Of a DNA stretch of 64,000 bases, positions 1-956 are shown piece after piece; the first letter of the stretch is position 1; the number at the start of each line of letters is the position of its first letter. The position numbers and the translations under genes were made by a program. This stretch comes from Synechococcus sp. CC9902 (GTDB lineage: Bacteria; Cyanobacteriota; Cyanobacteriia; PCC-6307; Cyanobiaceae), in assembly GCF_000012505.1 (NCBI RefSeq), contig NC_007513.1:868001-932000 (forward strand). The letters are read 5' to 3'. Below the pieces are notes generated by a model, which was not told the origin of the DNA, searched no databases, and saw nothing but the letters and a program-made list of their open reading frames with translations.

Positions 1-7
1 CGCATGG

Positions 8-466
8 GTGAGATGTGGATGGTTTGCGCGAATCACACCGATGCCAATTCACATCACGGACATTGATTCAATGAAAGGAGATGGTGATTGCGCTAGCAAT
101 CGAAAGCGCATTGCCATCGGTGTTGCACCGATGGGAACCATTGCCATTGGGATTGTGCCGATGGGCGTGATCTCGATCGGCGTGGTGCCGATGGGGGTGG
201 TGTCGATTGGTGTGGTCGCCATGGGTGTGTTCAATGCCGCAATCGTGGGCATGGGGTTGATCGCGGTGGGGTTCAACACCATGGGCGTCTTAACCGCTGG
301 ACCCATGAGCATGGGCTTGATTCAAATCCGTTCCACTACAAATCCTCGCTATCTCGCTTACCCCTCACGGGAGCAGGCTGAAGAACAGGCCGCAAAACTC
401 GGTTGCCACGGTGTTCATCGCATGGGTGACCGTTACTGGATGCCCTGCAACGAGCATCCTCAGTAA
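8..466 (+). CDS. Decapeptide-repeat protein with DUF3721-like C-terminus
   Basis: About residues 36-105 are built of seven tandem ten-residue units with a central Pro/Ala-Met-Gly and a hydrophobic-Gly pair (VVPMGVVSIG and variants), visible in the DNA as a degenerate 30-bp repeat. The last ~35 residues are different: YPSREQAEEQAAKLGC, then HRMGDRYWMPC, which resembles the small cyanobacterial family DUF3721. The repeats are hydrophobic and Gly-rich, suggesting a membrane-associated or stacked beta structure, but the function is unknown. The frame is open to the left window edge; GTG 8, ATG 41 and ATG 71 are possible starts and none has a clear ribosome site. The next gene, a Fur regulator, is convergent. 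Confidence 0.65.
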   Translation: MRCGWFARITPMPIHITDIDSMKGDGDCASNRKRIAIGVAPMGTIAIGIVPMGVISIGVVPMGVVSIGVVAMGVFNAAIVGMGLIAVGFNTMGVLTAGPMSMGLIQIRSTTNPRYLAYPSREQAEEQAAKLGCHGVHRMGDRYWMPCNEHPQ

Positions 467-476
467 TGAGTTGTTG

Positions 477-956
477 TCAGGTCTGACAGTCAGTGCAGAT
501 GGCTCTGACATTCAGGCTTGATTCAATCAATTTGAAGTTCAATTTTTCTGCTGCTTCTGCCCCAGCGGCAAGAATTGACTCACTCTCAAATTCTTCGGTG
601 CGTCCACAGCGGATACAAACCACGTGGTGGTGGTCTCTGTGGTCATCGTCGGCTAATTCAAATCGGCGTCCCCCCTCACTGAGTTCCAGCTCTTGCAGAA
701 ACCCCATGTCTGCGAGCAGACGGAGGGTTCGATACACCGTGGCTAGGGACACTTTGAGTTTGAGATTCACCAGTTGCTGATGCACCTCCTCAGCGCTGAG
801 GTGGCAGCCGGCACCGCGCAGTTCAAAAAGTTCCAGCACCCTTTTGCGCTGGGGGGTGAGGCGCCGTCCGCCTTGATGCAAACCATCTTCGAGGGATCCG
901 TCCTCAGGATTTTGTGCTGAAGACGGCGACACCCGGAGTTGAACAGTTGTTCTCAA
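477..956 (-). CDS. Fur-family metal/peroxide-responsive transcriptional regulator
   Basis: DNA-binding repressor of the Fur superfamily. The N-terminal winged helix shows RLTPQRKRVLELF and SLATVYRTLRLL, which matches the recognition helix of the family. It is followed by the His-rich metal site HRDHHHVVCIRCG and a second CxxC near the end (CTDC), so a structural zinc site is likely. The C-terminal half (EFESESIL) is closest to Fur rather than Zur, but PerR cannot be excluded. Length (159 aa) is normal. No ATG is available: an in-frame stop lies just upstream of TTG 956, so translation starts at TTG 956, at a GTG eight codons later, or at a further TTG. No Fur box was recognised upstream. Confidence 0.88.
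   Translation of the reverse strand: MRTTVQLRVSPSSAQNPEDGSLEDGLHQGGRRLTPQRKRVLELFELRGAGCHLSAEEVHQQLVNLKLKVSLATVYRTLRLLADMGFLQELELSEGGRRFELADDDHRDHHHVVCIRCGRTEEFESESILAAGAEAAEKLNFKLIESSLNVRAICTDCQT

Follow-up and report, generated by a model that had tools for sequence, protein, structure and literature searches.

What does a small cyanobacterial protein do in which seven ten-residue repeats, each carrying a methionine at the same place, run into a DUF3721 domain, and does it handle a metal? The gene lies at the very start of the window, by which we mean the whole stretch of 64,000 nucleotides analysed here (Synechococcus sp. CC9902, contig NC_007513.1, positions 868,001 to 932,000). The features concerned, in window coordinates, are:

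1 to 66, forward strand: 3' end of the upstream partner gene, encoding a 72-aa DUF3721 protein (53 bits) with an export-signal-like N-terminus
71 to 466, forward strand: array gene with a DUF3721 tail, encoding 131 aa (Pfam and homologue searches)
110 to 319, forward strand: seven decapeptide units, with Met at residues 21, 31, 41, 51, 61, 71 and 81
359 to 460, forward strand: DUF3721 domain, C-x3-H-x9-C-x2-H (Cys112, His116, Cys126, His129)
477 to 956, reverse strand: Fur-family regulator, a convergent neighbour whose functional link to the array gene is unproven

A first-pass annotation of this DNA had started the gene at position 8. That start is not borne out: the likely ATG is at 71, four bases past the TGA (64-66) of the upstream gene, and the frame from 8 to 70 is an out-of-frame overlap with that DUF3721 gene. 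The start at 8 is not supported because the open frames measure 132-144 aa in 25 of the 30 nearly full-length homologues from the genus; among the remaining five, one measures 167 aa, with its extra length at the C-terminal end, three measure 185 aa, the window's among them, and one measures 209 aa. A larger upstream protein was considered and rejected, given the out-of-frame overlap with the partner gene and frames above 144 aa in 5/30 genus matches. The upstream extension is not conserved, and the frame does not continue into a larger known protein, as the annotation had allowed it might.

The context was read from 8 kb upstream of the window together with the window start. The order, all on the forward strand, is a glucosylglycerol-3-phosphatase gene (TIGR02399), an ArsS radical-SAM gene (L002:6857-7801, window -1143 to -199; TIGR04167, 433 bits), the 72-aa DUF3721 gene (L002:7848-8066) with its likely ATG 153 bases before the window, and the array gene. 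Between the end of ArsS and the likely ATG of the exported-looking DUF3721 protein there are 46 bases. Further into the window, positions 1101-1367 and 1367-1633 of the forward strand encode tandem small conserved proteins, DUF3764 and the Trp-rich DUF2389.

The array covers residues 14-83 and consists of the units IAIGVAPMGT, IAIGIVPMGV, ISIGVVPMGV, VSIGVVAMGV, FNAAIVGMGL, IAVGFNTMGV and LTAGPMSMGL, with the pattern xxIGxxPMGx. The first-pass annotation had described seven degenerate ten-residue units and a 30-bp periodicity of the DNA, and both descriptions hold. Compared with itself, the protein is 0.48 identical at a shift of ten residues (lag 10) and 0.45 identical at lag 20, whereas none of 10,000 shuffles exceeded 0.30, taking the highest of lags 5, 10, 15 and 20 each time. 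At lag 30 the DNA reaches an identity of 0.57, while 2,000 codon shuffles averaged 0.34 and never went above 0.45; Tandem Repeats Finder also reports a period of 30. The comparison of repeat number that the annotation had proposed yielded an alignment (A1, 35 rows) which is gapless within the first five units and contains no homologue with the array replaced by unrelated sequence. Two features had been singled out by the annotation, the array and its tail: the tail is indeed there, whereas the methionine ladder of the array and the adjoining DUF3721 gene, which lies mostly outside the window, had been missed.

In the window's array seven methionines stand exactly ten residues apart. From an alignment (A2) we made a profile, and with it examined 172 distinct rows, 112 of them Cyanobiaceae-like and 60 others. 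The residues counted were M137/H34/F1 at array-model position 19, M171/V1 at positions 29 and 39, M163/C8/V1 at position 49 and M170/V1 at position 59. Met, His or Cys thus occupies these five positions in 171/172, 171/172, 171/172, 171/172 and 170/171 rows, respectively: as expected of soft-metal ligands, the sites are conserved and one ligand replaces another, with a single exception row per position. The hydrophobic positions between the ladder sites drift among I, V, L, F and A, and a Gly every five residues is nearly invariant over most of the array. If the methionines were kept for packing, Leu or Ile should turn up in their place; what turns up is His or Cys, the other soft-metal ligands. 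This is the strongest sequence evidence for metal binding, which we infer from the substitution pattern. The conserved methionines could nevertheless serve packing instead of metal. Position 9, in the first unit, is variable (L102, H37, R11, T10, M5; mostly Leu in Cyanobiaceae) and counts against a fully uniform ladder. Runs of Met, His or Cys at exact ten-residue spacing mostly comprise 5-6 residues in Cyanobiaceae (102/110) and 5-7 elsewhere (57/61). The differences arise through substitutions and, in some non-Cyanobiaceae proteins, through an extra unit, partly with one inserted residue. Directly downstream of the fusion gene, L128, L129 and L133 have another array match, one that lacks DUF3721.

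The tail, which had been called DUF3721-like, matches DUF3721 at 54.5 bits against a cut-off of 27 (positions 1-33, E about 1e-14). In an alignment of 19 DUF3721 sequences, both Cys residues and the first His of the motif never vary, and the last His hardly does. In Cyanobiaceae the protein has an N-terminal Cys (mostly CGxxPK) followed by the array; a linker, rich in His in some lineages, then leads to DUF3721. A C-x3-H-x8/9-C tail is found in 97/110 Cyanobiaceae sequences versus 0/61 distinct non-Cyanobiaceae ones; among the latter, 21/23 aligned rows have at least two His in the last 15 residues. A separate DUF3721 gene, whose product starts like an export signal, lies directly upstream, on the same strand, in 96 of the 117 distinct fusions at the loci examined, with a median of 101.5 bases from partner domain to array. 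Nearly all partners (95/96) have the full C-x3-H-x8/9-C-x2-H pattern, 55/96 have at least three His after it, and a permissive pattern search finds a Cys resembling that of a lipobox ahead of it in 47/96. The 21 partnerless fusions include L080, L093 and L145, which share a histidyl-tRNA synthetase neighbour (L080 scanned), and several Synechococcus loci. The genome of the window, a single contig of 2.23 Mb, has three DUF3721 places and one array gene. In its third DUF3721 gene (L005:1369-1901, near 1306044) the motif's final His is missing, and the next gene encodes a short membrane protein resembling PepSY (Pfam 18.6 bits, under the cut-off).

The array protein is real and conserved. At E<=0.001, 31/34 genomes of the genus have a match, 30 of them nearly full length. 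In Cyanobiaceae, the family of Prochlorococcus and marine Synechococcus, matches at the same threshold occur in 268/300 genomes and 39/40 genera; 244 of the 268, counted from the listing, fall below 1e-20, and the 24 weaker ones may be DUF3721 alone. In a sample of 386 genomes from across the phylum, 57 have DUF3721, all of them from the window's family, and 97 have GLTT-type arrays, several other cyanobacterial families included. A contig scan confirmed 419 stretches; the best 80 of these are all labelled cyanobacteria except for two contigs of one MAG labelled Gammaproteobacteria (the label is taken as given), and the named relatives among them are mostly Synechococcus, Prochlorococcus and Cyanobium. 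A virus gene was rejected, as the window protein has no match among 50,697 phage records and the viral contigs found have DUF3721 only. A plasmid gene was likewise rejected: a search of 72,556 plasmids gave no match to the L146 relative. Cys/His domains like DUF3721 are present on 16 IMG/VR viral contigs (L390-L405; e.g. L391:4851-5615 and L400:4095-5291); in the 11 that were inspected they sit in larger proteins without arrays, some with two copies, and the L400 protein resembles a prohead protease. An open-access literature search found neither DUF3721 nor "GLTT repeat" in any paper, and a characterisation of the array protein was not found.

The first-pass annotation had offered a membrane coil or a beta-solenoid as the fold. 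Two low-confidence models favour beta structure without choosing between these two. A model of the full protein (35 sequences) has a pLDDT of 58.8 and one short strand per decapeptide, with the DUF3721 tail modelled strand-helix-strand-strand at a pLDDT of about 70-82. A model of the array alone (36 more diverse sequences) reaches a pLDDT of 65.3, and its residues 31-80 are all beta at 72-82. Foldseek gave no significant match for either model; the weak top rows for the array model have E 5.1 or worse and are mostly enzymes with left-handed beta-helix domains. VIA-align over 12 chains gave a best Z of 3.1 against the array model (pLDDT 65). No convincing solved relative was found for the whole protein, the array profile or the DUF3721 profile; the best hit of the last among solved structures has E 0.005 and is a molecule named SG122_C3. 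Judged by these models, beta structure of the array is likely, and solenoid and sheet are both possible. The array is also extremely hydrophobic (GRAVY 1.59 over 75 residues, 2 of them charged), which makes its contact with a membrane plausible.

By neighbourhood, the link to copper is shown mainly outside the window's own family. In a first batch of 29 non-Cyanobiaceae array loci, copper-type neighbours were found at 9. At L146 and L252 the array gene is near cytochrome c6-like, DUF1775 and CopC-CopD genes; at L153, L165 and L249 a PetR/PetP-like pair lies directly downstream; L250 has a cytochrome c6 PetJ neighbour; L159 and L254 have DUF411 and a multicopper-oxidase-like gene, divergent; and L148 has a CusA/CzcA pump on the other strand. 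The neighbours were identified from Pfam, NCBIfam, or similarity to proteins so identified. DUF1775, CopC, CopD, CusA/CzcA, DUF411, PetJ (L250), Penicillinase_R (L153, L165) and Peptidase_M48 (L153, L249, L165) score above cut-off, while PetJ (L146), CopY/TcrY (the regulators of L153 and L249), M56 (the proteases of L165 and L249) and CueO (the oxidase) are significant but below it. Since several models are below cut-off, we use the designation "PetR/PetP-like" on the strength of the domains, the order of the genes and the description in the literature.

As the markers had been chosen from the first-batch loci, 34 further loci were fetched, and only these are a fair test. A copper marker was present at 5/34 (L303, L315, L319, L323 and L327) versus 0/40 random regions (one-sided Fisher p=0.017), the random regions being drawn from 20 of the genomes and related genomes not being independent. 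L303 and L323 belong to a family already in the first batch, and L315, L319 and L327 do not. In all, 49/63 non-Cyanobiaceae loci have no copper marker nearby, and petRP or petJ adjoins the array gene at L146, L153, L165, L249, L250, L252, L303 and L323. Co-occurrence with PetR is uninformative because PetR is present in 195/242 genomes of the sampled order, nearly always in single copy; linkage by presence and absence was therefore dropped and only distance used. Of the 62 genomes (counted by hand) whose array matches are strong, five have PetR no more than 2 kb away from the array gene, whereas 0.05 would be expected if a uniform genome of 5 Mb is assumed. These five genomes span three families, three of them coming from one family.

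Within Cyanobiaceae the picture is different. At the window locus the array gene is not adjacent to petRP, petJ or another copper gene, and copper markers were found at 5/129 loci of the family, four of them far (about 3 kb or more) or weak. The one close case is L210 (Prochlorococcus AG-363-P01): downstream of an exported-looking DUF3721 gene and the fusion gene, at a distance of 463 bases and in the same orientation, stands a cytochrome c6-like gene that scores 110 bits with the PetJ model, below the cut-off of 135. Near these genes, L210:6929-7870 on the reverse strand encodes a 313-aa protein with a His-rich stretch. The recurrent neighbours at 128 Cyanobiaceae loci are a Fur-family regulator (48), ArsS (36), HupE/UreJ (21), a porin (18), a metal-type MerR regulator (15) and an ABC-3 permease (13), markers that were chosen from the same loci, with no deduplication by lineage, so that one species may occur twice; in the control, 0/20 random regions had any of them. 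The porins are of the OprB/SLH class, called "iron uptake porin" in NCBIfam. Beside the pair at L134 (2186-3406) and L136 (2477-3658) are proteins related to this class that have His/Met-rich stretches and no Pfam match. The MerR neighbours match the CadR-PbrR, CueR and ZntR models below their cut-offs. The permease is above the ABC-3 cut-off, with the zinc-specific NCBIfam models below theirs, and is read here as a putative ZnuB. A metal theme is therefore supported in Cyanobiaceae too; the neighbours point to no single metal, and zinc is a fair rival.

Taking ladder, tail and neighbourhoods together, we tentatively propose, as a reading that falls a little short of probable, that this is a metal-handling protein in which an array with a ladder of soft ligands works with DUF3721 modules, likely on Cu(I) or a similar soft ion. 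The array would fold as a stack of short beta strands, on which the methionines would form a line of thioether sites. At this line, in a membrane or at its surface, Cu(I) or another soft ion of this kind would be bound, and metal would move to or from it by way of the DUF3721 modules, of which one is fused and the other exported. Physiologically, the protein might supply copper to photosynthetic electron carriers or buffer it for them. A bolder version is doubtful. In it, a beta-repeat with a methionine ladder, embedded in a membrane or attached to one, would act as a wire or reservoir for Cu(I) and bring copper to plastocyanin/cytochrome c6 or take it away there, while DUF3721 modules, both fused to the repeat and paired with it, would exchange the metal on the far side. 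If true, the ocean's most abundant photosynthetic cells would possess a copper-handling device of a new class.

The metal, in our reading, is probably Cu(I), with zinc as a serious rival. In picocyanobacteria the protein might instead deal with zinc (or nickel/cobalt), the DUF3721 modules holding Zn(II) and the array acting as an anchor or scaffold. We consider this unlikely, though it deserves to be taken seriously: the C-x3-H-x8/9-C-x2-H pattern carried by DUF3721 is typical of zinc knuckles, and the Fur-family, HupE/UreJ, metal-type MerR and ABC-3 genes counted above recur at Cyanobiaceae loci and are missing from the random regions. However, Met ladders suit Cu(I)/Ag(I) and not Zn(II), and at the non-Cyanobiaceae loci, where the DUF3721 tail is absent from 61 sequences, the metal neighbours found are copper genes. 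According to PMC9337993, the Zur regulon of WH8102 comprises eight genes, including znuABC and bmtA.

The extreme hydrophobicity, the near-invariant Gly every five residues and the beta-rich models would fit a purely structural hydrophobic beta-repeat, a membrane or envelope scaffold in which the methionines pack and the copper neighbours are incidental. The substitutions speak against it, since the ladder methionines change to His or Cys and not to Leu or Ile like the positions beside them (one exception per position), as does a copper-gene adjacency in excess of the random-region controls, and we hold a scaffold to be improbable. Far less probable still is a function specific to marine Synechococcus, in which the protein would work with the upstream ArsS enzyme in arsenic metabolism. 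Thiols bind As(III), and ArsS stands close before the partner gene on the same strand and recurs in the family; yet it was not seen in the stretches examined at 92/128 Cyanobiaceae loci, whereas the DUF3721 partner is kept in 96/117 fusions. The soft-ligand ladder, the reading we prefer, gives a precise and testable hypothesis of how picocyanobacteria cope with copper when it is scarce or toxic, and offers a candidate role for an uncharacterised gene beside petRP-like genes in some other cyanobacteria.

How does this protein compare with known families and systems? The annotation could not assign the repeat to a named family, and in this it was formally mistaken: the array is a match to Pfam GLTT (PF01744), at 56-58 bits (58.2 bits for the window's array) against a cut-off of 21, and shares short Gly-spaced repeats with that family. 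PF01744 is described as a nematode XGLTT pentapeptide, whereas the array has a decapeptide with a nearly invariant Met and no G-L-T-T motif in 131 aa. As the namesake motif is absent and the unit is xxIGxxPMGx, the protein is not filed as a GLTT protein in function, and the name explains nothing about the array. The Pentapeptide_2 model scores the array at 11.6-12.5 bits, below its cut-off of 26.4, and NCBIfam has nothing above cut-off for the array protein. With Pfam DUF3721 (PF12518) the likeness is direct, tail and upstream partner both exceeding the cut-off; the difference is that the domain is here fused to an array and occurs also as a separate exported-looking protein.

The PetRP copper regulon is the plastocyanin/cytochrome c6 switch (PMC7896320, PMC12382314), with PetR and PetP described in PMC12292863. 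PMC12382314 presents Slr0601 as a small protein of unknown function and slr0601-slr0602 as regulated by PetRP. In several families of cyanobacteria the array gene has PetR/PetP-like or cytochrome c6 genes beside it, but at the window locus it does not. A further comparison, by principle, is with the Met-rich copper proteins CusF, CopC and Ctr1, the last with its Met triads: Met-based Cu(I) sites would be the shared working principle, whereas the sites of the array would form a periodic line on a repeat fold.
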